From the NCBI GenBank assembly GCA_025055455.1, contig JANWXD010000024.1, positions 1-62,250 on the forward strand: a DNA stretch of 62,250 nt, given 5' to 3'. Position numbers and translations under genes: made by a program. Positions 30,337 through 47,205 of this stretch are shown here, piece after piece. This stretch comes from Bryobacteraceae bacterium. Its GTDB lineage: Bacteria; Acidobacteriota; Terriglobia; Bryobacterales; Bryobacteraceae. The notes below the pieces were generated by a model. The model was not told where the DNA came from. It saw only the letters and a program-made list of their open reading frames with translations, and did not search any database. How positions within the stretch are numbered: position 1 is the first letter of the stretch; each line of letters opens with the position of its first letter.

Positions 30337-31770
30337 CTACTGACATACCATTCTACCGCCGCTCCCCGACAAGTATATCTTCTCGAAGCCGCAATTGTGT
30401 TCCTCGAACCAGTCGGCGAGCCGATTGGCGATTTCGTCGAAGGCCGGGGCAAGCCGGGCCGCCAGCCCCAAAACCCGCCGGACGAACTCCGCCGACCGCA
30501 AGGCGCCGTGCAGATACGTCGCGACCACGCCGGGCAACCGCACACCTTCCGGAGCGCCATCTTCGAGAGTGAACAACGCGGGCAGCGGTTCGGCAGGCAC
30601 GGTGACGCCCATGTGGATTTCGTAACCTTCCACGCGCAATCCCTCCGCCGTGCGCCCGATTCTGCGTCGCACCTGCTTGTCCGGCGCCATGGTCGTCACC
30701 ACCGGCAGCAGGTCCAAACCCGGCTCCGTTGTCGGCGGGCCTTCGATTCCCAGCGGATCTTCAACCCGCCGGCCCAGCATTTGATAGCCGCCACAAATGC
30801 CCACCACCTGGCTGCCGGCACGGTGTTGCGCTCGAATCCAGTGGTCGAGTCCGCGCTGCTTCAGCCAGCGCAGATCGGCGATCGTGTTTTTCGTCCCCGG
30901 CAAAACAATCGTATGAAACCGTTGCGGCACGGGCCGATCGATCCAGACGGCGCCCTCCAGTAACTCGAAGTCGGTGGAATTGGAGATTCGCGGCAGACGA
31001 ACGATGGCGCAGGTAGCCTCAGGTGGAATCGTCTCCGTGACCGGCGGCACGGACAAACTATCTTCGGCTTCGAGCACCACGTCGTCTAGAAACGGGAACA
31101 CGCCGAGGCAGGGCAGCCCGCTGGCGGCTTCCAGATATTGCTTTCCTTCATCGAACAAGGAGCGGTCGCCCCGAAAGCGGTTGATGGCGAAGGAGCGCAC
31201 TAGCCGACGGTCCTCGGCGGGCAGCAACTGCAAGGTGCCGAGCAAGGAAGCGAAGACGCCGCCGCGGTCGATGTCCGCCACCAGCAGTGCTGGGGCGCCG
31301 ACGCGGCGGGCGAAGCCGAAGTTGACCAGATCGAACGGCTGCAAGTTCACCTCGGCCACGCTGCCGGCGCCTTCGATGAGGAGGAACTCATAGCGGGCCG
31401 CAAGCTCGCTCCAGGCCCGCAGGACTTCCTCTCGCAACGCTTCGCAGTGCTGGTAGTATTCCCGCGCCGAGACCGTCTTCCAGACTTTGCCGCGCACCAC
31501 TACCTGGCAACGGGAATCGCCCGCCGGCTTGAGCAGGATCGGGTTCATGGCGGTCTCGGGTTCCAGCCCGCAGGCCCAGGCTTGCACGACTTGGGCCCGG
31601 CCGATCTCGCCGCCATCGATGCACGGGTAAGAATTGTTGGACATGTTCTGCGCCTTGAAGGGCGCGACCGAGATCCCCCGTCGGCGCAGCCAGGCGCCCA
31701 TGGCGGTGACGAACCAGCTCTTGCCGACGTGGGACGCCGTGCCGCCGACGAACAGACATCTTGCGGGCAT
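30337..31770 (-). CDS. cobQ/cbiP: Cobyric acid synthase (glutamine-hydrolysing)
   Basis: 477 residues. It amidates four side chains of adenosylcobyrinic acid a,c-diamide. The N-terminal synthetase domain has the P-loop FVGGTASHVGKS (residues 7-18), FKAQNMSNNS and ADIDRGGVFAS; the C-terminal triad glutaminase domain has nucleophile Cys326 in VVGICGGYQMLG and the late His in TYLHGAL. It is the last gene of the riboswitch-led operon, 38 nt after the ChlI-ChlD fusion. Confidence 0.95.
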   Translation of the reverse strand: MPARCLFVGGTASHVGKSWFVTAMGAWLRRRGISVAPFKAQNMSNNSYPCIDGGEIGRAQVVQAWACGLEPETAMNPILLKPAGDSRCQVVVRGKVWKTVSAREYYQHCEALREEVLRAWSELAARYEFLLIEGAGSVAEVNLQPFDLVNFGFARRVGAPALLVADIDRGGVFASLLGTLQLLPAEDRRLVRSFAINRFRGDRSLFDEGKQYLEAASGLPCLGVFPFLDDVVLEAEDSLSVPPVTETIPPEATCAIVRLPRISNSTDFELLEGAVWIDRPVPQRFHTIVLPGTKNTIADLRWLKQRGLDHWIRAQHRAGSQVVGICGGYQMLGRRVEDPLGIEGPPTTEPGLDLLPVVTTMAPDKQVRRRIGRTAEGLRVEGYEIHMGVTVPAEPLPALFTLEDGAPEGVRLPGVVATYLHGALRSAEFVRRVLGLAARLAPAFDEIANRLADWFEEHNCGFEKIYLSGSGGRMVCQ

Positions 31771-31808
31771 GGCTCAGCTCCTCTGCCGGATGCGCGACGT
31801 GGCAGCGT

Positions 31809-33524
31809 TCATGGATGGAACAGCGGGCTCGTCGGGTTTGGCCCGGCTCCTGTGCGGGCCAGCTCGAGCACGCCCTCCGTGGTCAGTTCCTCCAACGAGA
31901 TCAATCTGGCCCCCATGGTGCGCGCCAGCTCGGCCAGCCGAGGTTCTCCCGTGGTCGAGCAATCCACCACCAGGGCCGGGCAACGGATCCGAGCCGCTTG
32001 TTCGAGAGCCTCACTCCATGGGTCTCCTCTGGAGAGGGCGACGTTGGCCTGTCCGTCGGTGAGCAGCACGGTGCACAGGTGTGCTTGCGGATATTCGGCC
32101 GCCAGCTGCAAGGCGTGCGCCAGGGGCGTTCTTCCTCCGCACGGGACATACTCCAGACAGCGTCGCGCTCGCTCGATATCTCCGTCGGGAGGAAGGAGAA
32201 TTTCGGCGCGAGCGCCGCGAAAGACGATGACGCTCACCTGGCAGGCTTGTCGCGCGGATTGCTCGAGCAGACCGATGACGACCCCTTTGACGGTGCGGAT
32301 ACGCTGCCGCGCCGCCAGCGAGCTGCTAACATCCACCACGAACAGGAAGCACGTGGGCGCACCGGTAACCCCAGGACGACGGACCAAATACTCCGGGTGC
32401 AGCTGAGGCTGAGCCGTCCCCACCGTGGCTTTGCGGAGGCTGGCGTGGAGCTGAATCGACGTCTCGGATCCCGCGCTCCCCGGTGGACTGGCGGTGGTCC
32501 GAACGGATTCCGCCGCCGCTCGGTCGGCGGGCCGTGCGCCCGGGTCTGCGCGGGCCCGCAACGTGGGCACGGGCACGTCCTCTGGCAAGAAGACGCGCTC
32601 GTCGGCGCTGCCCGCCTGAACCTCTGCCGGCTTCGAGGAAGACGGCGAAGGAGCGACGGGCTGCTCCTTCGGCGGCCGGCCGTCTTGGCGGCGATGAAGC
32701 AGCACCAACGGCGCCACGCGATCGATGTCGGCCTCGGTAACGGCGGTGCGGCCTTCCCAAGCCGCCAGGGCGCGGCAGGCGCGGTGCAGGGCCAGGTCGG
32801 CGCGGAGCGAAGCCACTCCGTGACGCGTGACCAACTCGGCGATCCGAATCCCCACCGCCGGGGGCACTGCGACGTTGGCTCGCAGCTGGCGTGCGGCGGC
32901 CACGCGATGGCGCAGAGCTTCCTCCGCTTCCTCGAATCGGGCGCAAAACGCCTTCGGGTCGGCGTCGAACTCCTCACGAGATCGCACGATGGCCGACCGT
33001 TCGGCGGGATCCGTGGGCGGCCGAACCTGGACGGCAAGGGCGAAGCGGTCCCGTAACTGCGGCCGCAGCGTGCCTTCTTCCGGATTCATCGTTCCGAGCA
33101 GGATGAATTCACTTTGGGCGACGAGCGAAAAGCCGTCGCGCTCCAGCCGGTAGACGCCGCTGGCCAGCACGTCCAGCAACGCATCCGCCAGCGCATCCGG
33201 CAGCAGGTTCACTTCGTCAAGGTAGAGCACGCCGCCGCAGGCGCTTTGCACCAGCCCCGGTTTGAGCCGCGCCTGGCCGGAGAAGGCCGCCTCCAGATCC
33301 AGGCCGCCGAGCAGCCGGTCCTCGGTGACGCCGATCGGCACTTCCACGAACGGCGCGGGGGGCGGAAGCAGCTGTGCGAGCGCGCGCGCCGCTGTCGATT
33401 TGCCACTTCCTTTTTCGCCGAAGGCCAACACGCTCAATCGCGGGTCTACCGCCGCCAGCGCGAGCGCCAGTCGCAGCTCTTCGAGTCCGACCAGGGCCGA
33501 AAACGGGTATGCCGGCTGACTCAC
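31809..33524 (-). CDS. Fused ChlI-ChlD-type chelatase subunit (AAA+ plus VWA)
   Basis: 571 residues from the GTG at 33524, which overlaps the cobN stop as GTGA. Residues 1-280 form a ChlI-like AAA+ domain: Walker A GEKGSGKS (36-43), Walker B LYLDEVN (100-106) and LLGTMNPEEG. A Pro/Ser-rich linker (about 280-390) leads to a VWA domain with an intact MIDAS motif, DVSSS (398-402), and LLTDGQANVA. In magnesium chelatase the two parts are usually separate (ChlI, ChlD); here one chain could supply both ATPase and MIDAS functions to the CobN-type large subunit encoded upstream. Confidence 0.93.
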   Translation of the reverse strand: MSQPAYPFSALVGLEELRLALALAAVDPRLSVLAFGEKGSGKSTAARALAQLLPPPAPFVEVPIGVTEDRLLGGLDLEAAFSGQARLKPGLVQSACGGVLYLDEVNLLPDALADALLDVLASGVYRLERDGFSLVAQSEFILLGTMNPEEGTLRPQLRDRFALAVQVRPPTDPAERSAIVRSREEFDADPKAFCARFEEAEEALRHRVAAARQLRANVAVPPAVGIRIAELVTRHGVASLRADLALHRACRALAAWEGRTAVTEADIDRVAPLVLLHRRQDGRPPKEQPVAPSPSSSKPAEVQAGSADERVFLPEDVPVPTLRARADPGARPADRAAAESVRTTASPPGSAGSETSIQLHASLRKATVGTAQPQLHPEYLVRRPGVTGAPTCFLFVVDVSSSLAARQRIRTVKGVVIGLLEQSARQACQVSVIVFRGARAEILLPPDGDIERARRCLEYVPCGGRTPLAHALQLAAEYPQAHLCTVLLTDGQANVALSRGDPWSEALEQAARIRCPALVVDCSTTGEPRLAELARTMGARLISLEELTTEGVLELARTGAGPNPTSPLFHP

Positions 33525-36500
33525 CGCGTCTTCCTCGTTTCCTCGGCCAGCTCGATGGCGTCGGCCGCGGCCCGCTCGCCGGCCCGCAAGGCCTCGAGCA
33601 AGGAGGGCTCGGCGCCCTGCCACAGTCCGCGCTCCGCCGCTTCGAGCAGCCGGCGACAGATCGATTGCAAGGCCCACGGATTGGCCTGCATGAGGAACTC
33701 CCGCATCTCCGCGTCGGCGGCGTAATTCTGAGCGACGCCGTGCCAGACGAAGTCGGGAATGACGTCCGCGGTGGCGTCAAAACCGAAGATGTAGTCGACG
33801 GTGGCCGCTAGCTCCAAGCCGCCTTTGAAGCCATGGCGCCGGATGCTGGCGAGCCATTTGGGATTGACGACGCGCGAGCGGTACACGCGCAGCACTTCTT
33901 CGCGCAGGTCTCGCACCACGACGCACTCCGGCCGGGAGCTGTCCCCGAACCACGCCTTCGGTTTACGCCCGGTCAAGGAGCGAATGGACGCCACCAATCC
34001 GCCGTGGAACTCGAAGTAATCGTCGGCATCGAAGATATCGTGCTCTCGGTTGTCCTGGTTCTGGAGGGCGATTTCGACCTCGGTCAGGCGCTCGGCGAGG
34101 ACCTCTTGGGCTTCGACCCCGTCCGAATCCCGGCCGTAGGCATAGCCTCCCCATTGCAGGTAGATCGCGGCCAAGTCATGCACGTCTGTCCAGTTGCCCG
34201 CCTCCACGGCTTCCAATAACCCACAGCCATAAGCGCCCGGCTTCGAGCCAAAGATGCGAAAGCGGGCGCGCTGCTCGACTTCCTCGAGCGGGAGTTCGCC
34301 GTGACGACGCTGGAACTCCAACAAATGTTTCCGCGGGTAATTCATCTCTGGCGGCTCGTCCTGGCCCATGGCCAGCTCCACGGCTTCGTCGAGCAGAACG
34401 ACGACGTGCGGGATGGAGTCGCGCAGGAACCCGGAGATCCGTATGACCACGTCGATGCGGGGGCGGCCGAGCTCCTCGAGCGGGATCGGCTCGAGCCCTT
34501 CGATCGTGCGCGAGACCGGATGCCAAACCGGCCGGATGCCGAGCAGCGCCAGCACCTCGGCGACATCGTCGCCCTGGGTCCGCATCTGAGAAGTGCCCCA
34601 GAGGGTCAGTGCGACGGTTTCCGGCCAGCGGCCCTCCTCGGCGCGATAGCGCTCGAGGACTTGCTGGGCCAGCTGCTGACCAATCTCCCAGGCGGCGGGC
34701 GAGGGCACGTTACGCGGATCGACGGCGTAGAAGTTGCGGCCGGTCGGCAGCAACCACGCTGCGCCCCGCGTGGGCGCACCCGATGGGCCGGCGGGCACGT
34801 AGCGTCCGTCCAAGCCATCGAGCAGGTGTAAGATCTCGTCGCAGGTGCGCTCCAGGGCGGGCACGATCTGCTCGCAGACGAAGTCGAGCACGCGCATCGT
34901 GGCCGAGGACGTCGCGCCCAAAATCGAGTCGCAGATCTGCGGGACTTGCGCTTGGCGAAAGCCCGTGGTTTCCAGAGCCGCCAGCAGCTCGACGGATTTG
35001 GCTTCGGCCTGCTCGAGCAAGTCCGCATGCGAACGGCATTCGCGACCGAGGAAGAGCACCGGCGCAGGCAAGCGCTGGCCCGGCTGCCGGGCCAAAGAGC
35101 TGTAGTCAAAGCCGCTTGCCTGGAGCAGGGAGCCCGGCAGGCTGGGCACCGCGCCGTTCGGTAGCCGCGTCAGCGAAAGCAGCGTCTCCGGCAGCGGGGG
35201 CGTTTCGCCGAGAATGTGCAAGCCGTCCCGGATTTGAGCCAACCCCAACTCGCAAAGATAGCCGTCCAGGTCCTGAATCCAGTGCGCCACTTGCACGCCG
35301 CTCATCTCCGCTAAGGTGACCGGCACCCCGTCGGGCGTCAACGTCTCGTCCCACTCGTGCTTGTGCGTGCCGTGATCTTGGCGGAAACGGCTGCGAAGCT
35401 CCAAGTCCTGTTGTAGCTCGGTCTCCTGAATCAGCTCCCAGATCCGCTTCTGGATGACCGGCAGCTTGGCCGGATCCAGGGCCTCCAAGGTGTAATACTC
35501 GTTGACGAGGTGATTCAGTTCCGCTAACGCGCCGTAGGTTTCTGCTCGGGTCATCGGGGGCATGAGGTGATCGACGATGACGGCATGAGCGCGGCGCTTG
35601 GCTTGGCAGCCCTCGCCCGGGTCGTTGATGATGAACGGATAAAAGAGCGGCGCTGCCCCGAGCGCAACGTCCGGGAAACACTCTTGCGAGAGGCCGACGC
35701 TCTTGCCCGGCAGCCATTCGAGCGTGCCATGCTTGCCCAGCTGCACGATCGCGCAGGCCCCGAAGCCGCCTGCGCTCGGCTCCGCTGTCAGCCAGCGGTA
35801 GAAGGCCAAGTAGTGATGAGTGGGAGGCAGATCCGGGGTGTGATAGATCGCGTCCGGATCCAGGTTGTAGCCGCGCGGGGGCTGGAGCGCTATCAAAACG
35901 TTGCCAAAGACGACCGCGGAAAACAAATAATCGTCTTCTGAGCGGTAAGGGCAGTGCGGTTCCCCGAGCGGCGGTCCCCACTGTTTCTCCACCCGGCGTC
36001 GCACGCTCTCCGGCAAGTGGCGATACCACTCCATGTAAGCGGCCCCAGAGAGTCGGTGTGGGGTGAGCTCGTCCAGGGGGTGCTCCTCGCTGTAGGCGCC
36101 CCGGGAGAGCACCCGGTGCATCAACTCGGTGGGATCCTCCGGCCACGGATCTACGGTGTAGCCGCGACTCCGCAAAGCGGCCAGCAAGCGGCCGAGGCTT
36201 GCGGGCGTGTCCAGACCGACGGCTTCGCCCGCCTTCACCGTGCGGCCCGAGGCGCAATTGAGCACGATGGCGATGCGCTTTTCAGCGGGCGGGATCCGGC
36301 GCAGGGCCGTCAGCTTTTCGGCGAAAGAGGCCACGCGTGCGCAGCGATTCGCTTCCGCGCGATAGACGGGCGCGGGGAGTTCTGCATCTCGCTCCTTGAA
36401 GCAGATCGGTACGGTGATGATGCGGCCGTCCAGCTCCGGCAACGCGACGTGGATTGCGGTTTCGAGCGGCGACAGGCCGGATTTGGAAAGCGACCAGGTC

Positions 36501-37789
36501 GAGGCGGGCATGCTGGCGGGGATCGCTTGCAAGACAGGTAAGTCAAGCGCTTGGAAAACGCCCCCTTCGTCGGCCGTCGGTCGCGCACTGCGATGGTGAG
36601 CAAAGGCGAGCGTCGAGACGATTACGTCCGCGCGGCCACGGACGAGCTCCAGTGCCGCCGGCAGCTGGTCCCCCGGGGCATTCAAACTGGAGGTGTAGAT
36701 ACACAGCGGTTCCAGACCGTGCTGCTCGAGCGCCTCCGCCAAGGCGTCCACGAAGGCCGTGTTGCCGCTCAGGAGGTGGGCACGGTAGAACAGCACGGCG
36801 GCCACGGGCCGCCTTGGATCGCGACGCGATTGCCAGTCCTCGAAGGTGGCCTGCTCGACGTCGGGCAGGTAAATTCCCGTCTCGGGCATCGCGACCGGGG
36901 GAAGCAGCGGGTAGTCAGTCCCCAAGACAGCGTTGGCGCAGAGCTTGAGCGCCTCCGCAACGTTTCCCGGACCGCCGTGAAGCAGGTATGCGGTCATCTG
37001 GTAGAGCACGGCGCCGGGGGCCGTGGACTCCCGCTCGAGATGCGGATCCAGCTCCCCCGGCCCGCTGAGCAACAGCAGGTGACGCCCGAACCCCCGCAGA
37101 TGGTCCCGGAGCTGGGGCCAACCGGGAACCCGCTCGGGCGCGCCATGCAGGCGCAGCACTGCAGCTGCGGCACGGCCCAGCGGCCCGGCCAGCAGCGACT
37201 CCATCACGCGCTCCTCCCGGACCAAGCTCAGGGAAATGCCGAGCACCTGCAACTCTGGGGGGAGCAATCCCCGAGCCCGCTCGAGCGCGATCAGGTCTGT
37301 ATCCGCGTGGGTCAGAAACGCGATCAGGCGCGGTTCGACTGCCGCAGCAGGATCCGACGCCGTGAGCTCGTGCGGCCGCACCTCCCAGTCGTAGTACTGA
37401 AACTGAAACGGCGCCAGCTCGGGGGGCGGCGGCAGGATGCGATCGGCCGCCAGCATCTGCTCGATGTAGTCGTAAAGCAGCCTCACCTGCCAGTCGGCGG
37501 CAAACGAATGAAACCACAGGGATCGGCCGTCGAACAACAGACACACGACGTTGGCCAGCGGGCAAGGCCCCAAGCAACCCGCGCGGGTGAGGTGAACGAC
37601 GTTTCGGATTTTTCGCCGCAACCACTCCTGCTTGAACAAGTCCGCAGGGATCGCGGGGTATCCTCGCTCGGTGTGCCCGCAGCAACAGCCGAACGCGCAG
37701 TACAACAGATGGGCCCGCTTTTGCACGACTTGAATGATGCGACCATCGCTGCGGGCGACGCGCTGCCGGTAGGGGGTCGTGTAGCTCAA
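33521..37789 (-). CDS. cobN: CobN-family metal chelatase large subunit with N-terminal Fe-S ferredoxin-like domain
   Basis: 1422 residues from the TTG at 37789. The first 110 residues hold a Cys-rich domain (Cys31, Cys35, Cys36, Cys37, then Cys72 and Cys76 in CLGPC) of the thioredoxin-like [2Fe-2S] ferredoxin type. The rest is the CobN/BchH-like large subunit, with its hallmark IVQLGKHGTLEWLPGKSVGL and FIINDPGEGCQAKRRAHAVI. CobN inserts Co2+ into hydrogenobyrinic acid diamide with ATP-hydrolysing partners; the ChlI-ChlD fusion downstream is the likely partner. HmuS-type CobN homologues in heme-uptake operons act on heme, so substrate and direction are not proven. Confidence 0.9.
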   Translation of the reverse strand: MSYTTPYRQRVARSDGRIIQVVQKRAHLLYCAFGCCCGHTERGYPAIPADLFKQEWLRRKIRNVVHLTRAGCLGPCPLANVVCLLFDGRSLWFHSFAADWQVRLLYDYIEQMLAADRILPPPPELAPFQFQYYDWEVRPHELTASDPAAAVEPRLIAFLTHADTDLIALERARGLLPPELQVLGISLSLVREERVMESLLAGPLGRAAAAVLRLHGAPERVPGWPQLRDHLRGFGRHLLLLSGPGELDPHLERESTAPGAVLYQMTAYLLHGGPGNVAEALKLCANAVLGTDYPLLPPVAMPETGIYLPDVEQATFEDWQSRRDPRRPVAAVLFYRAHLLSGNTAFVDALAEALEQHGLEPLCIYTSSLNAPGDQLPAALELVRGRADVIVSTLAFAHHRSARPTADEGGVFQALDLPVLQAIPASMPASTWSLSKSGLSPLETAIHVALPELDGRIITVPICFKERDAELPAPVYRAEANRCARVASFAEKLTALRRIPPAEKRIAIVLNCASGRTVKAGEAVGLDTPASLGRLLAALRSRGYTVDPWPEDPTELMHRVLSRGAYSEEHPLDELTPHRLSGAAYMEWYRHLPESVRRRVEKQWGPPLGEPHCPYRSEDDYLFSAVVFGNVLIALQPPRGYNLDPDAIYHTPDLPPTHHYLAFYRWLTAEPSAGGFGACAIVQLGKHGTLEWLPGKSVGLSQECFPDVALGAAPLFYPFIINDPGEGCQAKRRAHAVIVDHLMPPMTRAETYGALAELNHLVNEYYTLEALDPAKLPVIQKRIWELIQETELQQDLELRSRFRQDHGTHKHEWDETLTPDGVPVTLAEMSGVQVAHWIQDLDGYLCELGLAQIRDGLHILGETPPLPETLLSLTRLPNGAVPSLPGSLLQASGFDYSSLARQPGQRLPAPVLFLGRECRSHADLLEQAEAKSVELLAALETTGFRQAQVPQICDSILGATSSATMRVLDFVCEQIVPALERTCDEILHLLDGLDGRYVPAGPSGAPTRGAAWLLPTGRNFYAVDPRNVPSPAAWEIGQQLAQQVLERYRAEEGRWPETVALTLWGTSQMRTQGDDVAEVLALLGIRPVWHPVSRTIEGLEPIPLEELGRPRIDVVIRISGFLRDSIPHVVVLLDEAVELAMGQDEPPEMNYPRKHLLEFQRRHGELPLEEVEQRARFRIFGSKPGAYGCGLLEAVEAGNWTDVHDLAAIYLQWGGYAYGRDSDGVEAQEVLAERLTEVEIALQNQDNREHDIFDADDYFEFHGGLVASIRSLTGRKPKAWFGDSSRPECVVVRDLREEVLRVYRSRVVNPKWLASIRRHGFKGGLELAATVDYIFGFDATADVIPDFVWHGVAQNYAADAEMREFLMQANPWALQSICRRLLEAAERGLWQGAEPSLLEALRAGERAAADAIELAEETRKTR

Positions 37790-39530: not shown

Positions 39531-40480
39531 CGGTGTGTGCCCCGGATCATCGCGGCTAACCGCTCCAGTACTGCCAGCACGCGCGGTCCGGGCCGCAACA
39601 TCCAGTCTTCGGTTAGCGCCACGACCCGGCCCGCGCGCACCGCGGTCAGTTCGCGGCGTTGCAACCAGGGTTGCAAGAGTCGCGCTGCCAACGCATCGCG
39701 CTCCCGTTCCTCGGCGGTCGTGGCGGAGGCATCCAAGATGAGCTCCGGGTCCCACGCCAGGATGGTTTCCAGCGACACGCGGGGGGAGCGGGGCAAATCC
39801 GGACCGACCACATTGACCGCGCCAGCCACTTCCGCCAGCGCGCCGAGCCAGGATTTCGGCCCGACGACGATGACGCCCCGCAGCGCGTCCGGCTGTCGGC
39901 CCACCACGATCAGGGTTCGGGGCCGACGGGGCGGGGGACGGTGGCGCAGCGCCTCCACGCCCTCCCGAATGCGGATCACCATTTCTTCGGCCTGTTGTCG
40001 TCGCTCAAGTGCCTGCCCGACCTGGAGCAGGGAATGGAAAACGTCCTCAAGCGAGTCCTGCTCGACGACGAGCGTGCGGAGACCCAAGGCCTCCAGACGG
40101 TTTCGCAGGTCGCCCCGATACCCGTGCAGGAGGACCAGATCGGGCCGCAGGGCAGCGATGCGTTCCGGATCCGGACGGGTGTAGGTGCCGATCCGGGGCA
40201 GGCGGAGGACATCGGGCGGATAGTTGCAATGTGCCGACACGCCCACCACCCGACTGCCTGCCCCCAGGGCGAAGACGGTCTCGGTCAGCGAAGGCGCTGT
40301 GGTCACGATGCGCGAGGGTTGTGCGAGCCCGTGCCCGGCCGTCGCCCAAAGCAGCGCGATGAGGCACCCGTGGCGCAGCTGCGGAACCCCAGTCGGGCGA
40401 CGGCTCCCGACAGCTGCCGACTGCGGCGGAGCCGCATGCCGCTCGACGTCAGTTGCCGATTTGGATCCCCACCAGCGCAT
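39527..40480 (-). CDS. BtuF-like periplasmic corrinoid/metal-chelate binding protein (transporter 2)
   Basis: About 317 residues if the ATG at 40480 is used, which overlaps the receptor gene by 32 nt. No other ATG, GTG or TTG stands between there and the hydrophobic signal (CLIALLWATAGHGLAQ), so the n-region would be unusually long. The mature part is PeriBP_2 class III: RIVTTAPSLTETVFALGAGS, CNYPPDVLRLPRIGTYTRPD, RPDLVLLHG and a late DPELILDASATT segment. It would deliver the ligand to the transporter 2 permease. Confidence 0.82.
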   Translation of the reverse strand: MRWWGSKSATDVERHAAPPQSAAVGSRRPTGVPQLRHGCLIALLWATAGHGLAQPSRIVTTAPSLTETVFALGAGSRVVGVSAHCNYPPDVLRLPRIGTYTRPDPERIAALRPDLVLLHGYRGDLRNRLEALGLRTLVVEQDSLEDVFHSLLQVGQALERRQQAEEMVIRIREGVEALRHRPPPRRPRTLIVVGRQPDALRGVIVVGPKSWLGALAEVAGAVNVVGPDLPRSPRVSLETILAWDPELILDASATTAEERERDALAARLLQPWLQRRELTAVRAGRVVALTEDWMLRPGPRVLAVLERLAAMIRGTHR

Positions 40481-42893
40481 AGCGGCCCGGCGCGCGCCAG
40501 CCGTTCTGATAGTAGGTGCGGTCCAGAACATTCTCGACTTTGACGAACACCCGCGCGAATTTCGTCGAAGATTCCCAGATGCGGTAGCTACTCGTGAAAT
40601 CGACTTTAGTAAATCCGGGGAACCGGAAGGCTCGCGAGCGGTTGACGGCGAAATACGAGTTGAAATATTCACCTTGCGTGTAGATATCAGCGTTGGTCTC
40701 GAACCGCCGCCCCCACTGCTTGAAAACGACCAGCGAGGCGGTATGCCGAGGCACCTGGAATACACGGAAGAAGCCGCGCACGGTAATGTCCCGATCCAGG
40801 TTGGCATTGGTGTACGTGTAGGCGCCATTGAGGATCAGACTGCGGCTGGGGCGTCCCTCGACGCCGAGCTCCACGCCGCGGCTGATGCCTCCGCTGCCGT
40901 TGATATAGCCGACCGTGCGGCGGTAGGGGTCGGTTTGCGGGCGAATCGCGCCGCTCGAGTCAAAGGCCGTGATGGAGACCACTCGGATGTAGAACCAAGT
41001 CGCGGAGAGCCGGAGACGGTCGCTCCAGAGATATTGGTCCAGGCCGGCATCCACAGAATTGTAGCGGTCGGGCCGCAGCAGAGGATCACCGTAGGGAGTG
41101 AATTCGACGAAGGCCCCGGCCGGGTTGGCGCTGAAGCCGCCGCCGAAACGTTCGTACAGCGACGGCGCCCGGTAGCTGTTGCCGGCATGCACCCGGAATT
41201 TGGTCCCCGTGGACGGCGCCAGGTAAGCCAGGGAGAAGTCGCCCGTCAAAGCGCTGGGGGGCGCGTCAATCGGCACGCGATCGTAGTTGTTCGCGGTGCC
41301 GGTCAACTGGAACCGGGGGCGCCGCAAGCTAAAGAACTGGCCCCGGCCGGATAGGTTAATTTGGAGTTTACGATCCAAAAAGGCTGCTTGCAGGGCGGCG
41401 TAACTCGCCAGGGCGCGTTGCGTGATTTCGGTTTGGGTCGCCACCCGGCGCGGCGCCGGCAGGTTGTTATCCTGACGATCGAAGTAGCGCTCGCGTTCCC
41501 ACTCCAAGCCGCCCGAAAACGTCAGCCAGCGGGTGGGTAGGGCATGGAGCCGGGCGTCCACCGTGTCGATGTCGCCCACGTAATTGCCGAAGTTGGCCGC
41601 CGCCGGCTGCGGGCTGAGACCGGCGGGGCCATTTTCGAAGATGCGGGACGTGTGGACGCGCTGGTAGCTCGCTTGCAGGTTCGCTTGGGGACTGAAGTGG
41701 TGCCGGAACAGTGCGGCCGTGGTCCCAAACCGCGAGGAGCGGCGGTTATCCGGATCGTCGCGCCCCGGCAGGAGCGTGATCCCGCGGTAGTCGGGCCGGC
41801 TACCGGCCAGCAGCAGGCGCACTTGATCCGGGGGCAGAATTTGGGCCGGGATGACCCCGTCGGCGGGGAAATTGGCAGCGGGAACACCGGTCGTGCCCGG
41901 GCTAATGTTCAGCTGAACGAAATCATCGGACGCCCAAAGTCGCCCGCTCAGGCTGGTGCGCGACGCCAGGTCATAGCGGCCGAAAAATTGACCACCAGTG
42001 CTGCGGTTGGCGTCGTTGCCATCCACGCCCTCGGAGACGTTCAGGTGAAGGAGGCCGGCCGAATACCGGAACCGATTGTCCCGATAGCCACCACTGGCGC
42101 CCACCCGGCCGCGGAACAGGCCCAGGCCGCCTCCCTCGAACAAGAGGTGGCCGCGAAAGGGCGAACCGCCTTCGTGGGTGATGACGTTGATGGCCCCGCC
42201 GACGGCGTTGGTGCCGTAAATCGAGGAAGCCGAACCGCGGAGCACCTCTAAGCGCTCGACCTCGATCAGGTTCAGCGTCGAAACAAACGAAGTCGCGTCT
42301 CCTTGCGTGGTCGAGGCGTCGCGGAACCGCAGGCCGTCGATGAGGACCGCCGACGCGTCCGGCCGCACCCCACGGATGCGAATCGTCGTGAAAGCTCCCG
42401 GTCCCCCTGTGCTGGAGATGAGGACGCCTGGCAGGGGCCGCAAGGCTTCCGCCAGTGAGAACTCGTCGCGGCGGTCGATCTCGGCCGCCGTGACCAGGCT
42501 GGTCGCCTTGGCTACCTCGTCTGTGGTTTGCGGCAAAGCGTTCGCCGTCACGAGGATGGTTTCCGACAGACCGTCCAGTTCGAGACGGATCTCGACCTCC
42601 TGCTGGTCAGCGCGTTGAAGGTGCACCACTTGCACCCGATCCCGAAATCCGCTGGCGGACACTTCCACGTACATCGGCCCAGGCAGAAGGCCGTCTGCGC
42701 GGAAGCGGCCGCTTTCATCCGTCACCAGGCGGATGTCACCCGTGGCGTCGGTGCGGTAGAGCCGCACGCTGGCCCTGCCCACTCCGCTCCCTTGCGGGTC
42801 AAGCACCCGGCCGACGAGGGTCACGCTATCTTGCGCGGTCGTGAGCATGACTCCGAGCATCCACAACGCACAGACGTTTACGATCCCTCGCAT
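40449..42893 (-). CDS. TonB-dependent outer-membrane receptor (BtuB-like)
   Basis: 814 residues. Signal peptide 1-20; residues about 22-110 are a carboxypeptidase-regulatory-like Ig domain (GRVLDPQGSGVGRASVRLY), common in acidobacterial and bacteroidal receptors; a TonB-box-like ETILVTA near 112; then the plug (LRPLPGVLIS, IRIRGVRPDASAVLIDGLR, VERLEVLRGSASSIYGTNAV) and the beta barrel. Between two B12-type ABC importers and under a cobalamin riboswitch, it is most likely a corrinoid receptor. It overlaps the ATPase gene upstream by 16 nt. Confidence 0.9.
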   Translation of the reverse strand: MRGIVNVCALWMLGVMLTTAQDSVTLVGRVLDPQGSGVGRASVRLYRTDATGDIRLVTDESGRFRADGLLPGPMYVEVSASGFRDRVQVVHLQRADQQEVEIRLELDGLSETILVTANALPQTTDEVAKATSLVTAAEIDRRDEFSLAEALRPLPGVLISSTGGPGAFTTIRIRGVRPDASAVLIDGLRFRDASTTQGDATSFVSTLNLIEVERLEVLRGSASSIYGTNAVGGAINVITHEGGSPFRGHLLFEGGGLGLFRGRVGASGGYRDNRFRYSAGLLHLNVSEGVDGNDANRSTGGQFFGRYDLASRTSLSGRLWASDDFVQLNISPGTTGVPAANFPADGVIPAQILPPDQVRLLLAGSRPDYRGITLLPGRDDPDNRRSSRFGTTAALFRHHFSPQANLQASYQRVHTSRIFENGPAGLSPQPAAANFGNYVGDIDTVDARLHALPTRWLTFSGGLEWERERYFDRQDNNLPAPRRVATQTEITQRALASYAALQAAFLDRKLQINLSGRGQFFSLRRPRFQLTGTANNYDRVPIDAPPSALTGDFSLAYLAPSTGTKFRVHAGNSYRAPSLYERFGGGFSANPAGAFVEFTPYGDPLLRPDRYNSVDAGLDQYLWSDRLRLSATWFYIRVVSITAFDSSGAIRPQTDPYRRTVGYINGSGGISRGVELGVEGRPSRSLILNGAYTYTNANLDRDITVRGFFRVFQVPRHTASLVVFKQWGRRFETNADIYTQGEYFNSYFAVNRSRAFRFPGFTKVDFTSSYRIWESSTKFARVFVKVENVLDRTYYQNGWRAPGRYALVGIQIGN

Positions 42894-43684
42894 AAGGCTT
42901 CCTCCCTCCTTGGATGAAAAATCACATATGGGGTACCGGAACCCGCCCGACCGATCTCAGTGCGCACCTGGAAGACGGACGTCAGCACCGGGTCCGGCAC
43001 ACCCTCCCTGGGAGAGCCGTCGTGGACGCAGCGGCCCCGGTCGAGCACCACCAGCCGGTCAGCGAAGCGCAGCGCCGAGGCCAGATCGTGCGTGGCGACG
43101 ATGACGCCACGTCCCTCGGCCGCGAGCCGGCGTGCCAGGACAAAAAGGTCCAGAGCGTGCCGAACGTCGAGATTGGCGGTGGGCTCATCGAGCAGCAAGA
43201 ACTCCGGCTCAGCCGCCAGCCCTCGTGCGATGGCCACGCGCTGTTTTTCGCCGCCCGAAAGCGTGCTCACCAGGCGAGCCGCTAGCGGGGCTAGGTCGCA
43301 AAGCTCCAAGCTGCGCGCGACGGCGGCGCGGTCAGCGCCGGCCGGAGGGCTCCAGCGCGAGCGATGGGCGTACCGTCCCATGGTGACCAGCTCCTCGACG
43401 GTGAAAATCCCGTCGAAGCGGTTCTCCTGTGGCACGAGCATGATCTGCCGCGCCAGGGCGCGCCGCGACAGGGAGAACACGGAGACCCCGTCATAGCGCA
43501 CGTCGCCGCGATCGGGGCGCCAGAGGGCGCAAAGCACGCGCAACAGGGAACTTTTGCCGCTGCCGTTCGGGCCCGCCAGCACGTGGACCCGGCCCGGGGC
43601 AAAGGACAGGTCGATGTCGGAGAGAATCGGCCGTCCGCCCCGCACCAACGTCACGCCGTGTACTTCCAAGGTCGCCCTCACCAA
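42878..43684 (-). CDS. btuD: ABC transporter ATP-binding protein, BtuD type (transporter 1)
   Basis: 268 residues. Walker A AGPNGSGKSS (37-46), MLVPQENRFDGIFTVEELV with the Q-loop, signature LSGGEKQRVAIARGL, Walker B with LLLDEPTANLDVRH and the H-loop ATHDLASAL are all intact. It pairs with the permease just upstream (7-nt overlap). It belongs to the B12/heme/iron-chelate importer class, and the riboswitch favours corrinoid. Confidence 0.92.
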   Translation of the reverse strand: MVRATLEVHGVTLVRGGRPILSDIDLSFAPGRVHVLAGPNGSGKSSLLRVLCALWRPDRGDVRYDGVSVFSLSRRALARQIMLVPQENRFDGIFTVEELVTMGRYAHRSRWSPPAGADRAAVARSLELCDLAPLAARLVSTLSGGEKQRVAIARGLAAEPEFLLLDEPTANLDVRHALDLFVLARRLAAEGRGVIVATHDLASALRFADRLVVLDRGRCVHDGSPREGVPDPVLTSVFQVRTEIGRAGSGTPYVIFHPRREEALCEGS

Positions 43685-44730
43685 GCCCAGCCCTCGCGAT
43701 GGCGCCGCAGCAGCAACGCGATGAAGAGCGGTCCGCCCACCAATGCCGTGACCACCCCGAGGCGAATCTCCAGGGGCGGGCGGAGCGTCCGCGCCAGCAG
43801 GTCACAGGCGAGCAACAGGATCGCTCCGGCCAAGGCGCTGGACGGCAGCAGCCAGCGGTGGGACGATCCGAGGATCAGACGCATGGCGTGGGGGGCCACC
43901 AGCCCCACGAAGCCGATGACGCCGGCGACGGCCACGGCCGCGCCGGTCAGAATCGCCGCGCAGGCGATGAGAACCCGCTTGACGGTCTCGACCTCGACAC
44001 CCAGCGCAGCCGCTGTTTCTTCGCCTTGCTGCATGAGATCCAGTTCGCGGCAGTAGGTGGCGGCGCACACCAGCCCGATACCAGCAAACGGCAGGCACAG
44101 CCACACGTGGGTCCAGGTGCGCGCCTCCAGGCCGCCTAAGGTCCAAAACAAAATCTCCTGCGCCACTTGCCAATTCGTGATCTGAAGCGAAAGAATCAAG
44201 CCGGCGGCCGCCGACAGCAACGAGCTCACCGCCACCCCCGCCAGCAGCAGGGTGGGAATCGGTGTCACGCCGCCGCGAGTCGCCATGGCGTAGACCGTGA
44301 GCAAGGCCAGGAGCGCGCCGGACATCGCCGCCAAAGGCAGGGCGATCGGTTCGGCCGCACTCCAGCCCATGGCGAATGCCACCACGGCGCCGAAGACCGC
44401 GCCGGCGCTCGCCCCCGTCAGTCCCGGCTCGGCGAGAGGATTCCGGAACAAGGCCTGGAGCACGGCGCCCGCGACGGCCAAGGCCGAACCCACGAAGGTG
44501 CCGACGACGACCCGCGGCAGGCGCAAATCCCACACCACGGCGAAGTGGACCGGCTTCAGGCCCGAAAGGTCCACCAGGCCCTCGGGCAGCAGGCGGCCAG
44601 CGAGCACGCGCAACGTGGTGCTGGGCCGCATCCCCGTCGGACTCGCCAGCACCGCCGCGACGAGCAGCCCGCCCAGAACTAGTGGCGCCACCGTGAAAAA
44701 CAGCCAGCGTCTAACTTGCTGCCTGCTCAT
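43678..44730 (-). CDS. btuC: FecCD/BtuC-type ABC transporter permease (transporter 1)
   Basis: 350 residues with about nine or ten membrane helices. WDLRLPRVVVGTFVGSALAV, NPLAEPGLTGASAGAVFGAV, AGVIGFVGLVAPHAMRLILG and ACDLLARTL are FecCD hallmarks. It overlaps the binding-protein gene by 20 nt and the ATPase gene by 7 nt, as expected for one transcription and translation unit. Confidence 0.93.
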   Translation of the reverse strand: MSRQQVRRWLFFTVAPLVLGGLLVAAVLASPTGMRPSTTLRVLAGRLLPEGLVDLSGLKPVHFAVVWDLRLPRVVVGTFVGSALAVAGAVLQALFRNPLAEPGLTGASAGAVFGAVVAFAMGWSAAEPIALPLAAMSGALLALLTVYAMATRGGVTPIPTLLLAGVAVSSLLSAAAGLILSLQITNWQVAQEILFWTLGGLEARTWTHVWLCLPFAGIGLVCAATYCRELDLMQQGEETAAALGVEVETVKRVLIACAAILTGAAVAVAGVIGFVGLVAPHAMRLILGSSHRWLLPSSALAGAILLLACDLLARTLRPPLEIRLGVVTALVGGPLFIALLLRRHREGWAW

Positions 44731-45709
44731 ACAAAGCGGCTCCCAGGGCGTCCAAAAACAGCCGCACGTAGGGCGACATCGCCGAAAACACGCGGTTTTC
44801 GAAGACCAAGATTCGTCCGGATTGGCCGGCCGCGGTAACGGCGATCGCCGGATCAGACAGAAGCTGCGCCACGCGTTCTTTCAGCCGCCCGGGATCGGCG
44901 CCGCACACGATCCAGTCCGGGTTCCAAATCGCGATCTGCTCCGAGCTGACGGGGTCGTAGCCACGAAGGCCGCCTTCGGCGCCTACGTTGACGGCGCCCA
45001 GGGTTTTGAGGATGTCGTGAAACAAGGTCTCCGAGCCGTAGCTGTAGCGGCCACCGAGACCCAGCACGCGCGGCGGCGTCGTTGCCGCCGGCCTGCGCCG
45101 GCGAGCCCGCTCGATCGCTTCCCGGAGCAGGGCCCGCTCGCGAGCTGCGGCGGCTTCGTGCCCTGTCAGATGGCCGACCACGACAATGGCTTGCTCGACT
45201 TCTTCGAGCGTGCGAAACCAAGTGTGCATCCGGAACACGCTCAGCCCTGTGCTGCGCACTGCGGCGGTGTAGTCCGCGCGCGCCGAGCTGGAAACGAACA
45301 CAAGGTCGGGTTCCGCCAGCAGCACCTGCTCCGGATCTCGAGCAATGATCGGCCGGTAACGCCGGACGTGTTCGAGCACATTGCTGATGCGGGCTTGGTA
45401 TGCACTTTCGCTGACGCCCTTTACGCGCTCGGGCGGCACGATCGTATAGACGAACTCGTCGATGGACCAAAACTGCGAAACCACGCCCCGGACGGGCCGG
45501 GCCATGCGGACGATGCGACCGTCGCGGTCCGTGGCTTCACGCACGGAGGCATCGGTCCGGATGCGGTAATCCGGCGGACGCGCCGACGTGCTCGCCCGCA
45601 GGGGCACGATGGCCGCCACGCGCGGCGCCTTCACGGCCACGAACGCCGCTGCGGCGGCGACAGCGCCGGCAAGCCATGCCGACGGGAGCCACGACAGTGT
45701 GCGGGTCAT
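44711..45709 (-). CDS. Periplasmic corrinoid/iron-chelate binding protein (transporter 1)
   Basis: 332 residues from the ATG at 45709 (ATGA overlap with the gene before). An N-terminal hydrophobic segment (WLAGAVAAAAAFVAV) acts as signal or anchor. The PeriBP_2 fold is seen in RMARPVRGVVSQFWSIDEFV, RYRPIIARDPEQVLLAEPDL and WNPDWIVCGADPGRLKER. It differs clearly from the transporter 2 binding protein, so the two systems may bind different ligands or corrinoid forms. Confidence 0.85.
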   Translation of the reverse strand: MTRTLSWLPSAWLAGAVAAAAAFVAVKAPRVAAIVPLRASTSARPPDYRIRTDASVREATDRDGRIVRMARPVRGVVSQFWSIDEFVYTIVPPERVKGVSESAYQARISNVLEHVRRYRPIIARDPEQVLLAEPDLVFVSSSARADYTAAVRSTGLSVFRMHTWFRTLEEVEQAIVVVGHLTGHEAAAARERALLREAIERARRRRPAATTPPRVLGLGGRYSYGSETLFHDILKTLGAVNVGAEGGLRGYDPVSSEQIAIWNPDWIVCGADPGRLKERVAQLLSDPAIAVTAAGQSGRILVFENRVFSAMSPYVRLFLDALGAALYEQAAS

Positions 45710-46284
45710 TCGCTTCCCGGGGCGCTTTCCGGCCACGGCGCGTTCGCGGCCAGCTCGAAATCTTCGGGGAAGGGCTCGCCGAGCCAGGCGTGCCGCAACT
45801 GGTAATACAAGCGCAAGCGGGACCAATCGGGCTCCCGCACCGGCCGCATCTGATCGTCGAGGTGCGGATTGGGCAGAAAAATCGTCAGCATCTGCTCGCC
45901 GAAGCCGTTCCAAAATCGCAGCCCCCAACTGCGACCGCCGCCGCAGCCTCCACCCCGCGTCTCGAAAAAGGCAGCGCGATGTACGGGACGTTTCTGGCGC
46001 AGCTCCTCGCTACGGTTCCCCTGGTGGGGTCCGGTACACAGGTGAAAGTGCCAAGGACCGGCATCCACGGTCAGATAGCCGTCCTGGAAGCGCACGGCGG
46101 GCGGCTTTTCCAAGCGCAGCTCAAAGACTGCCCCCTCGAGCACCGGGCCAAAGGTGATCTCCCTCCAGTGTTCGCGGAACAACTCCTCGAGCAGCACGCG
46201 GAGCTTTTCCGGCGGCAGCTGGAAGTCGGTGTACCGCGTCGCGACGCCGTCAGAGCGTCTCTCGATGGAAATGGAACGAGTCAT
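45706..46284 (-). CDS. Uncharacterised protein of the corrinoid operon
   Basis: 192 residues from the ATG at 46284; the longer frame to 46563 is antisense-like over the adenosyltransferase. There is no signal or membrane segment. A distinctive core reads GPWHFHLCTGPH (two His and one Cys, possibly metal- or corrin-binding), then SWGLRFWNGFGEQMLTIFLP and the acidic-aromatic EPDWSRLRLYYQLRHAWLG. I believe related proteins occur near cobalamin genes elsewhere, but I cannot name the family with confidence. It lies between the adenosyltransferase and the transporter 1 binding protein. Confidence 0.7.
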   Translation of the reverse strand: MTRSISIERRSDGVATRYTDFQLPPEKLRVLLEELFREHWREITFGPVLEGAVFELRLEKPPAVRFQDGYLTVDAGPWHFHLCTGPHQGNRSEELRQKRPVHRAAFFETRGGGCGGGRSWGLRFWNGFGEQMLTIFLPNPHLDDQMRPVREPDWSRLRLYYQLRHAWLGEPFPEDFELAANAPWPESAPGSE

Positions 46285-46307
46285 GGTGGGTTCCTCCGCA
46301 GGCAGAT

Positions 46308-46886
46308 TCACCAGGCGCGCGACCAGCGAGGCCCGGGCCGCTGGGTTCGGTGTCGCAGCGAACTGTCGACGCCGGCCTCGCTCTCGAGCTTGCGGCCATA
46401 CAGCCACAGCAGGTCCGAGAGGCGATTCATGTAGGCCAGGATGGTCTCTTGCACCGGCTCGCCCGCCTCGCGCAAACGCACGATCTGGCGCTCGGCACGC
46501 CGGCAGATAGTGCGGGCCAGATCGAGAGCGGCGGCCGCGGTATGCTCGCCCGGAATGGACCAATCCGAGAGGATGCCTTCCTGCTGCTCGATTTCATGCA
46601 CTTGACGCGTCAGCTCGTCCACGAGTTCGGGGCCGATGTCCACCTGCGGTTTGCGACTCGCCGGCGGGGTCGCCAGCGCCGACCCGATACGAAACAACTG
46701 CTCCTGAATGGCGCGAATCCGCTGGCGCAGGTCGTCGTGGGAACACAGAGCCCGCGCCAGTCCCAACGCGGAGTTGAGCTCGTCTACGGTGCCGTAGGCC
46801 TCCACGCGCAGGTGAGCCTTGCTGACGCGCAGGCCGCCGGCTAAGGAAGTCTCGCCGCCGTCACCGCGTCGAGTGGAAATGCTCAT
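46308..46886 (-). CDS. PduO-type ATP:cob(I)alamin adenosyltransferase
   Basis: 192 residues. TRRGDGGETSLAGGLRVSKA (the ATP loop), EAYGTVDELNSALG, and RRAERQIVRL plus MNRLSDLLWLYGRKLE in the C-terminal helices are family signatures. It transfers the adenosyl group from ATP to cob(I)alamin or cobinamide in the cytoplasm. It is the first gene after the riboswitch. A GGAGG at 46896-46900 lies 9 nt before the ATG at 46886. Confidence 0.94.
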   Translation of the reverse strand: MSISTRRGDGGETSLAGGLRVSKAHLRVEAYGTVDELNSALGLARALCSHDDLRQRIRAIQEQLFRIGSALATPPASRKPQVDIGPELVDELTRQVHEIEQQEGILSDWSIPGEHTAAAALDLARTICRRAERQIVRLREAGEPVQETILAYMNRLSDLLWLYGRKLESEAGVDSSLRHRTQRPGPRWSRAW

Positions 46887-46906: not shown

Positions 46907-47009
46907 CGGCAGACTTTCCACGAGCGCATCCTCGGCAGCGCTTTCCTCAAGTCCGGATGGCAACCGAATGGAGTGTGCATCCTTTCCGTGCTCCGCAGAA
47001 AGTCAGCCG
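46907..47009 (-). promoter_or_regulatory. Long-range stem between riboswitch and adenosyltransferase start
   Basis: On the minus strand CGGCTGACTTTC (47009-46998) can pair with GAAAGTCTGCCG (46918-46907): 11 of 12 pairs, with one T-T mismatch. The 3' arm ends 6 nt before the GGAGG ribosome site. It may be part of the expression platform of the cobalamin riboswitch. This is a pairing seen by eye, not an energy calculation. Confidence 0.45.
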
Positions 47010-47014
47010 GTGTG

Positions 47015-47195
47015 TGCCTCAGGTAGGTCTCCTGGCTCGGAGGCTGTGGCTCGTTTCTGCGGCCACTGGCGTGCTCCCCTTCCCCGCGGCTTCTCGCCCC
47101 GAGTGGTTTGGAGCCCGCCCACCTCGCTCACAGTGGCGGCACCGCGCCGGATTTTCACCGGTCTTCCCTGTTATGACCCTCGCGGGTTCACCTGA
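47015..47195 (-). promoter_or_regulatory. Cobalamin riboswitch
   Basis: Read on the minus strand the leader has GGGAAGACCGGTGAAAATCC, then GGCGCGGTGCCGCCACTGTG (containing the B12-box core GCCACTG), the variable arm, and the closing AGCCAGGAGACCTACCTG. These are the conserved J-elements and L5-L13 region of the B12 class aptamer in the correct order and spacing. It should bind adenosylcobalamin or another cobalamin and lower expression of the downstream adenosyltransferase-to-cbiP operon. The exact ends are approximate. Confidence 0.93.
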
Positions 47196-47205
47196 GACAG
47201 CCCTC

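Follow-up and report, generated by a model that had tools for sequence, protein, structure and literature searches.

A ferredoxin-fused CobN in a Bryobacteraceae B12 uptake operon: a candidate module for importing metal-free corrins and inserting cobalt

A CobN gene lies within a corrinoid uptake operon

We analyzed a 62,250-nucleotide stretch of DNA, the window, from a Bryobacteraceae bacterium (Acidobacteriota; contig JANWXD010000024.1 of assembly GCA_025055455.1), in which a gene for the cobaltochelatase large subunit CobN is embedded among genes for corrinoid uptake. The window is one contig (C62) of a 3.95 Mb genome in 145 contigs that is rated 98.75% complete. The genes of the locus lie on the minus strand (Table 1) in the order cbiZ, cbiB, cobalamin riboswitch, pduO, a gene for a DUF7676 protein, btuF-btuC-btuD (importer 1), a TonB receptor gene, btuF-btuD-btuC (importer 2), cobN, a chlI-chlD fusion and cobQ. 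From pduO to cobQ, the genes overlap or are separated by no more than 61 bases, and the riboswitch at their head is one of two cobalamin riboswitches in the genome. A sequence-only reading of this DNA had listed a TonB receptor, two B12-type ATP-binding cassette (ABC) importers, CobN, ChlI-ChlD and CobQ under a B12 riboswitch, with CbiZ and CbiB next to them. All of these are present, and pduO and the DUF7676 gene join the operon beyond that list. The 1422 residues it gave for CobN match the open reading frame (ORF) from its TTG start, and the possible redox domain it suspected corresponds to a stretch with a predicted ferredoxin fold. It had left a fork between insertion of cobalt into imported or locally made rings and exchange or removal of metal from imported tetrapyrroles.

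Table 1. Features of the cobN locus, with positions in the window
Feature	Position	Strand	Support
cbiZ, adenosylcobinamide amidohydrolase	48198..49385	-	PF01955 174.4 bits
cbiB ORF	47209..48375	-	PF03186 299.1 bits; TIGR00380 198 bits, cut-off 165.9
Cobalamin (B12) riboswitch, head of pduO-to-cobQ operon	47005..47210	-	RF00174 76.4 bits, gathering 31.5
PduO-type ATP:corrinoid adenosyltransferase	46308..46886	-	TIGR00636 164.4 bits, cut-off 108.45; PF01923 183.5 bits
DUF7676 protein, predicted HutX/ChuX/HemS-like tetrapyrrole-carrier fold	45706..46284	-	PF24724 185.4 bits; AlphaFold2 (AF2) + VIA
BtuF-like binding protein, importer 1	44711..45709	-	PF01497 71.9 bits
BtuC-like permease, importer 1	43678..44730	-	PF01032 302.8 bits; best NCBIfam the B12 BtuC model, 275 bits, below cut-off 461
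BtuD-like ATPase, importer 1	42878..43684	-	PF00005 110.4 bits
TonB-dependent outer-membrane receptor	40449..42893	-	PF07715 plug 78.9 bits; best NCBIfam TonB-B12, 123.8 bits, below cut-off 599.7
BtuF-like binding protein, importer 2	39527..40387	-	PF01497 95.5 bits; BtuF model 84.5 bits, below cut-off 234
ATPase, importer 2	38763..39530	-	PF00005 104.5 bits
FecCD-type permease, importer 2, directly upstream of cobN	37786..38763	-	PF01032 268.2 bits; best NCBIfam iron-siderophore permeases, below cut-off
cobN, ferredoxin-fused cobaltochelatase large subunit, 1422 aa, TTG start	33521..37789	-	PF02514 1248.5 bits; TIGR02257 1102.8 bits, cut-off 822.05; tree
Predicted N-terminal thioredoxin-like [2Fe-2S] ferredoxin domain of CobN, residues ~24-135	37385..37720	-	alignment, AF2, Foldseek, VIA
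chlID, fused ChlI-ChlD AAA+ and VWA partner	31809..33524	-	TIGR02442 472.1 bits, below cut-off 779.45; Walker A GEKGSGKS and MIDAS DVSSS present
cobQ, cobyric acid synthase	30337..31770	-	NF001989 523 bits, cut-off 273

The true start of cbiB is probably near 48190; its domain begins at residue 67 of the ORF. The nearest named relatives of the locus are in Bryobacteraceae metagenome-assembled genomes (MAGs). In one of them (L050; L and G numbers are our labels for loci and genomes) the gene order from cbiB to cobQ is identical and CobN is 73% identical. In another (L067, CobN 62% identical) the order from pduO to chlID is kept, and cobQ, cbiB and cobD are grouped at another place in the genome. 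A wider scan for relatives returned 27 loci: 24 ferredoxin-CobNs and three ferredoxin domains that stand alone, the latter in genomes lacking any CobN match.

The window protein groups with CobN, apart from HmuS and BchH

The window protein passes the cut-off of the CobN model TIGR02257 and falls short of that of the BchH model (726.3 bits, cut-off 829); its matches to five more CobN models (PRK names) were all below cut-off. Its best PDB match is CobN (7c6o, 1007 bits), with ChlH at 450 and HmuS at 310 bits. As the sequence-only reading had proposed, we built a tree of CobN, HmuS and BchH proteins (50 rows, 1161 columns; a quick LG+G4 search without a mixture model, midpoint root), leaving out partial or duplicate ferredoxin-CobNs (L029, L061, L062, L063, L066, L068, L072), the HmuS-type L035, L039, L041 and L043, and L048. 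The window protein lies within the ferredoxin-CobN clade (support 100 in the Shimodaira-Hasegawa-like approximate likelihood ratio test, SH-aLRT). This clade joins the CobNs of Sphingobium, Paracoccus, Neorhizobium, Kovacikia, Comamonas and Halorussus (27 rows, 6 of them canonical CobNs, SH-aLRT 100), and annotated ring genes adjoin cobN in Sphingobium, Paracoccus and Halorussus. Fourteen HmuS-type proteins of the Bryobacteraceae form a separate group (SH-aLRT 100), and BchH together with seven ChlH-like second copies of Chloroflexota forms a third (SH-aLRT 99). The window protein is thus on the CobN side of the tree, and neither clade nor cut-off places it with BchH/ChlH.

The comparison of active sites, also proposed by that reading, separates these proteins in part. 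All 50 rows retain the superfamily His (H687). At the second active-site His of HmuS (His1209; motif LSLDHxxEFMGG) the window protein has FDADDYFEFHGG, with Asp1257 at the His position. Asp is also found there in 20/20 other ferredoxin-CobNs and in 5/6 canonical CobNs, and the nine BchH and ChlH-like rows all have His. Because 7 of the 14 HmuS-type proteins are without the second His as well, the motif alone does not decide. By alignment, Asp1257 sets the window protein apart from characterized HmuS and is not by itself a mark of CobN.

Two further features distinguish the window protein from HmuS. All 14 HmuS-type proteins tested have a C-terminal hydrophobic stretch (1.50-2.73, three under the usual 1.6), whereas the C-terminal hydropathy of the window CobN is 0.47, with no such stretch, as in 8/8 CobNs tested (<=0.63). 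Judged in this way, the membrane anchor of HmuS is absent from the window protein. In addition, an AAA+ and VWA partner, the fused ChlID with its Walker A and MIDAS motifs, is encoded beside cobN. Given the position on the CobN side of the tree, the ATPase partner and the lack of an anchor, the support goes to insertion and not to the demetallation of heme.

A predicted ferredoxin domain is fused to CobN

Residues ~24-135 of CobN are predicted, by fold and by Cys ligands, to form a thioredoxin-like [2Fe-2S] ferredoxin. We aligned the window domain with 22 relatives, three of which are stand-alone domains, leaving out L057, L059, L062, L063 and L072. C31, C36, C37, C72 and C76 are invariant in 23/23 rows, and C35 is nearly so. 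The AF2 model of the domain has a predicted local distance difference test score (pLDDT) of 81.8. Its best Foldseek match is 5abr (E-value 7.2e-4, the sole match under 0.001), and a VIA comparison with this structure, FeSI, gave Z 11.3 and a root-mean-square deviation (rmsd) of 2.7 over 96 aligned residues. At the sequence level the resemblance is weak (NF041613 22.6 bits, below cut-off; 5abr E-value 3.4e-4), and Pfam has no match for the domain. DUF1636, considered as a stand-alone form of the domain, gave weak profile scores (<=5.0 bits). In the open-licence literature we found no published description of a ferredoxin-CobN fusion.

Other proteins encoded near ferredoxin-CobNs also have ferredoxin parts. 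The BtuR of Herpetosiphon aurantiacus (L057:8847-9983), encoded just upstream of cobN, has its own N-terminal [2Fe-2S] ferredoxin domain. A short protein encoded just after ferredoxin-CobN and ChlID in L065 (16020-16814) combines a weak CbiX match (20.6 bits, below the cut-off of 22) with a [2Fe-2S] ferredoxin match.

Ring genes are not found in the genome and vary among relatives

The sequence-only reading had noticed no genes for ring methylation or contraction and had suggested a search of the rest of the genome. The observation holds genome-wide as far as searched: a profile search returned 0 matches to CbiC and two TP_methylase genes, a SUMT-HemD fusion (in the window, beside hemC and hemA) and RsmI, neither of which is a ring enzyme beyond SUMT. 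The absence of corrin ring synthesis is thus called from these two families, with no search for CbiD, CbiG or the class II chelatases CbiK/CbiX. The ring methyltransferases and CobH/CbiC of a full aerobic cobalamin pathway were accordingly not found in a genome with a single copy of CobN. Absence calls here and below are from hidden Markov model searches, partly on draft genomes. An assembly gap behind the missing ring genes was considered and rejected: in a survey of 101 genomes of the family, CbiC was found in just one (G039, 85% complete, no CobN match), and the same pattern occurs in Herpetosiphon aurantiacus, whose genome is titled complete.

Ferredoxin-CobN occurs both with and without ring genes. 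CbiC was found in 8/24 ferredoxin-CobN genomes and not found in 16/24, and TP_methylase matches number 7-9 in the former and 2-4 in the latter. The eight CbiC genomes have no CobN besides ferredoxin-CobN (in pieces in G113, G114 and G119; partial in G123), and four of them (G111, G114, G121, G122) have it on the same contig as CbiC. The subfamily is thus used by genomes that carry ring genes, whose only CobN it is, and is still kept where those genes are gone. Seven of the 16 CbiC-less genomes (G103, G105, G106, G107, G109, G112, G117) have a second homologue that is ChlH-like by tree, one of which was checked against the PDB. Ring state changes four times on the tree, three times without the draft L073 and twice when only isolates and the window are counted, with gain and loss indistinguishable. 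The ratio of nonsynonymous to synonymous substitution (dN/dS) of cobN is 0.034-0.047 among three Herpetosiphon species without CbiC, which indicates purifying selection, and 0.13 and 0.15 for the window gene against L050 and L067, with synonymous sites near saturation.

The neighborhoods of ferredoxin-CobN genes often hold the steps that follow metal insertion. BtuR is encoded directly upstream in 15/24 loci, and the contig ends there in three of the other nine. In the Thermoflexales locus L054 the order is CobB, CbiZ, BtuR, CobN, CbiM, CbiQ, ATPase, CbiB, CobD-like, CobQ. L058 has CbiM and CbiQ after CobN, L059 and L073 have upstream CbtA-like genes (tblastn 35% and 41%), and CbtB and CbtA are annotated near CobN in a Granulicella locus. 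Altogether, cobalt importer genes are close to ferredoxin-CobN in 5/26 loci (the 24 plus Granulicella and Spirosoma), four of which (L054, L058, L059, L073) are in genomes without CbiC. CobB was confirmed by NCBIfam in L052, L054, L064 and Herpetosiphon aurantiacus. A Spirosoma plasmid carries CobB, CobN, ChlID and CobQ, then an aminotransferase, CbiB and a nitroreductase that we read as BluB-like, with CobU, an adenosyltransferase and an ABC importer on the opposite strand; the stretch of this plasmid that was read has no ring genes. Genes for cobalt import and for the steps that come next in biosynthesis are the company expected of an inserting enzyme.

A cobalamin-class riboswitch was found at 16/20 ferredoxin-CobN loci scanned. 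In 15 it lies on the cobN strand and before cobN, and in L146 only on the other strand. The match in L070 is barely over threshold (32.6 bits), that in L073 is to the adenosylcobalamin (AdoCbl) model, and none was found in L058, L059, L063 or L066.

A proposed late half-pathway for imported metal-free corrins

Gene content, the riboswitch, ring genes that were not found, the placement of CobN and the predicted ferredoxin fold are read from the DNA; from these we infer a direction of metal transfer, a substrate that is imported and a role for the ferredoxin. The reading that we favor, with a probability of roughly 60%, is that the operon is a corrin import-and-finish module, a late half-pathway that inserts cobalt into imported metal-free corrin. 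Corrinoids would enter through the TonB receptor and the two BtuFCD-type importers, and ferredoxin-CobN with ChlID, using ATP, would put Co2+ into a metal-free corrin that the cell itself is unable to build. The simplest substrate would be hydrogenobyrinic acid a,c-diamide, given that CobQ is kept and no CobB was found. The built-in ferredoxin would serve the reduction between cobalt insertion and adenosylation, probably giving electrons to the new cobalt center (Co(II) to Co(I)) and so enabling adenosylation by PduO, or by BtuR in relatives. CobQ would then amidate and CbiB would add the aminopropanol arm, while CbiZ would channel imported cobinamides into the same intermediates.

This arrangement may hint at a wider exchange in which the metal-free ring, hydrogenobyrinic acid or its a,c-diamide, passes between organisms as a vitamin precursor. 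Some microbes would make the ring, and members of the Acidobacteriota, Bacteroidota and Chloroflexota would import it through dedicated TonB/ABC systems and add cobalt by ferredoxin-CobN, after three or four changes of ring state. The Bryobacteraceae would have added DUF7676 as a HutX-like corrin carrier and a second importer next to cobN. We put this broader picture forward tentatively, as short of an even bet.

Several observations weigh against the import-and-finish module. CobS was not found in the genome, which we count as a real gap; known enzymes therefore cannot finish the cofactor, unless the gene sits in an assembly gap. Salvage of cobyrinate or its diamide would comprise CobQ (CbiP), CbiB, CobU, CobS, CobT and an adenosyltransferase with no ring genes, and CobS is the member not found (CobU and CobT were not searched). 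CobS was not found in 4/25 genomes searched; the nearest relative G101 (CobN 73% identical), G116 and the CbiC-bearing G122 are without it, and it is present in G118. CobB was not found either: among CobB/CobQ-type amidotransferases only the window CobQ is strong (149.3 bits), and the other three matches reach at most 34.3 bits. The genome's cobalt importer CbiM lies outside the window operon, and 21/26 ferredoxin-CobN loci have no adjacent cobalt importer. The module presumes metal-free corrins outside cells, and plain uptake and remodeling would equally explain the importers and CbiZ-CbiB. Long branches (Neorhizobium with Paracoccus; BchH with the second copies) and an unusual letter composition in 13 rows, the window included, were flagged by the tree program, and the HmuS-type clade is itself split at the second His position (7 His, 6 Asp, 1 Glu), so that Asp is not exclusive to CobN. 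The absence of CbiC in relatives rests partly on draft MAGs for which the search reports no completeness. Finally, the heme-carrier fold predicted for DUF7676 leaves room for a role with porphyrins.

Alternatives to insertion into an imported diamide

Among the alternatives, insertion at a later level survives best, although we think it unlikely. Here the substrate would be metal-free cobyric acid, cobinamide or a cobamide analogue, a possibility consistent with the genome in which neither CobB nor CobS was found and similar to one voiced for Chlorobaculum tepidum, where cobalt insertion into exogenous cobalamin was speculated (quoted in PMC8620254). CobQ, however, is kept in the operon, and CobB in several relatives points to early corrin acids.

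Slightly less probable again is that CobN takes cobalt out of imported corrinoids or exchanges their metal, for instance to recover cobalt or to discard corrins with the wrong metal. The uptake setting and the ring genes not found would suit it, and HmuS is a superfamily member that runs in reverse. The neighbors are instead an adenosyltransferase, CobQ or CobB and, in some relatives, cobalt importers. Moreover, the hold of corrins on cobalt is very tight, and a cobalamin riboswitch usually represses its genes when B12 is abundant, whereas scavenging cobalt from B12 would call for the reverse.

A de-chelatase of the HmuS kind, which would strip metal from imported heme or another metalloporphyrin, is improbable and was set aside on the tree, the anchor and the partner, with the motif adding only weakly to these. 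The idea draws on HmuS itself, a CobN homologue that acts on heme in this way (PMC12583661), on the TonB and ABC setting, on the heme-carrier fold predicted for DUF7676 and on an older prediction of metalloporphyrin salvage by BtuS, quoted by Rocha et al. Yet the window CobN belongs to a clade separate from the HmuS-type proteins, it has no hydrophobic C-terminal stretch, its locus has a ChlID partner and a B12 riboswitch, and a relative (G041) has a separate protein that matches HmuS best (604 bits in the PDB, against 434 for ChlH and 391-393 for CobN). The HmuS His is absent too, though half of the HmuS-type proteins share that absence.

Least probable of all is a relic, an inherited or transferred cobaltochelatase with no substrate left: the changes of ring state on the tree and the CobS and CobB not found would allow it, but the reading frames have no stops, the dN/dS values of the Herpetosiphon and window genes speak against it, and ChlID and CobQ are kept with CobN.

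Of the fork posed by the sequence-only reading, the insertion branch is the one that gained support; its heme branch did not, and exchange or removal on corrinoids is unlikely. That reading had also held that a complete aerobic ring pathway elsewhere plus a firm CobN placement would make this an ordinary cobaltochelatase. The placement is firm, and the complete ring pathway was not found.

Relation to known systems

With the aerobic (late) cobaltochelatase, in which CobN works with ChlI/ChlD or CobS/CobT, the window shares the family, the tree placement, the ATPase partner and the next steps (adenosyltransferase, CobQ, CbiB). It differs in the N-terminal ferredoxin fusion and in being part of an uptake operon in a genome where ring genes were not found. 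Salvage by the late pathway in the absence of ring genes is itself known: cobyrinate and cobyrinate-diamide auxotroph variants, Aba and Acbr, have been described from gut genomes (PMC6593275). Like the window genome, these variants have the late half of the pathway, no ring genes and predicted uptake. The rows for Aba and Acbr in the available part of that source list no CobN or ChlID, which means that these variants start from cobalt-containing rings, whereas the window keeps metal insertion and CobS was not found. As judged from gene content, the new element would therefore be a late-pathway salvage that keeps metal insertion, by way of a ferredoxin-fused CobN.

HmuS (PMC12583661) and the BtuS of Bacteroides (PMC6460266), which Rodionov et al. 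proposed in 2003 as a third CobN type (quoted in PMC6460266), have the superfamily and the TonB and ABC neighbors in common with the window CobN. They differ in being membrane-anchored, in having the second-motif His and, in the parts of these sources available, in having no ChlID named. Chelatase clusters of Chlorobi have CobN and BchH/I/D genes beside cobalamin transport genes, an uptake setting like the one here; the Chlorobium described has anaerobic ring genes in part of the population, and the available part of the source mentions no ferredoxin-CobN fusion (PMC8620254). The complete cobalamin operon of Chloroflexus aurantiacus, as given in the accessible part of PMC3150298, groups cobO, cobN and cbiMNQO as the ring-less L054 does, but with ring genes present.

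In the cited literature, B12 salvage is described as the uptake of cobalt-containing compounds. If some auxotrophs import the bare ring and insert cobalt themselves, one community member can supply the cobalt and another the ring, and a stray cobN in a genome scored as a B12 auxotroph would mark a recognizable class of partners. In these bacteria the fused ferredoxin is, in addition, a possible source of electrons for the reduction that separates cobalt insertion from adenosylation.

DUF7676 is predicted to have a heme-carrier fold

DUF7676 is a family of unknown function on which we found no publication in the open-licence literature. An AF2 model from five sequences (pLDDT 83.8) predicts a HutX/ChuX/HemS fold: VIA aligned it with ChuX (6u9j) at Z 10.5 and rmsd 3.3 over 132 residues, and among its best 14 VIA rows (Z 10.5-5.7; next Z 5.1) 11 are titled ChuX, HutX, HemS, ChuS, PhuS or heme-binding and the remaining three lack a functional title. 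The family differs from these heme carriers in its Pfam assignment and in sitting in a B12 operon, and on the model it may be a corrin carrier. H79, H81, C83 and H87 are invariant in 5/5 sequences and could bind metal. In the plasmid regions read (7 of 14 records matched), DUF7676 comes directly after a TonB receptor gene in 7/7, and ABC importer genes then follow in 5/7. Three cyanobacteria (L173, L174, L178) encode longer DUF7676 proteins after a TonB receptor, annotated as ferredoxin or Fe-S protein, and the added part is weakly similar to the CobN ferredoxin domain (5.8-12.6 bits). In Gloeocapsopsis (L173), DUF7676 is near genes for GTP-binding proteins, FolE, HisI and ThrS, a neighborhood that we take to recall a zinc-starvation regulon.

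HmuS-type proteins of the family and further observations

CobN-type proteins occur in 24 of the 101 Bryobacteraceae genomes surveyed. That these are mostly the same kind of protein as the window CobN was rejected on 20 regions fetched, which hold one ferredoxin-CobN (L029), one BchH-like protein (L048) and 18 proteins that are 26-34% identical to the window protein in their best segments. Fourteen of the 18 were included in the tree and form one clade, and five of these compared with the PDB matched HmuS best each time (604, 675, 456, 463 and 551 bits), although in L032 the margin is small (463 bits against 440 for CobN). On these five comparisons the whole clade is provisionally called HmuS-type. 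Fragmentary matches in G009, G016, G024, G042 and G068 and second copies in G036, G056, G099 and G101 are only partly placed. The 18 HmuS-type regions gave no DUF7676 match, and none of the seven HmuS-type loci scanned has a cobalamin-class riboswitch, in contrast to the window locus. In L032, L037, L040, L044, L045, L046 and L047 (7/14), Asp or Glu replaces the second HmuS His, and such proteins possibly have another substrate or chemistry.

The importers of the window operon (37786-40387 and 42878-45709) are two diverged FecCD-type sets in one operon, with permeases 36% alike, and the importer adjoining cobN may take a ligand different from that of the other. The second cobalamin riboswitch of the genome (contig C52; L170:7539-7716) lies, by sequence reading only, directly before a TonB-receptor-like ORF.

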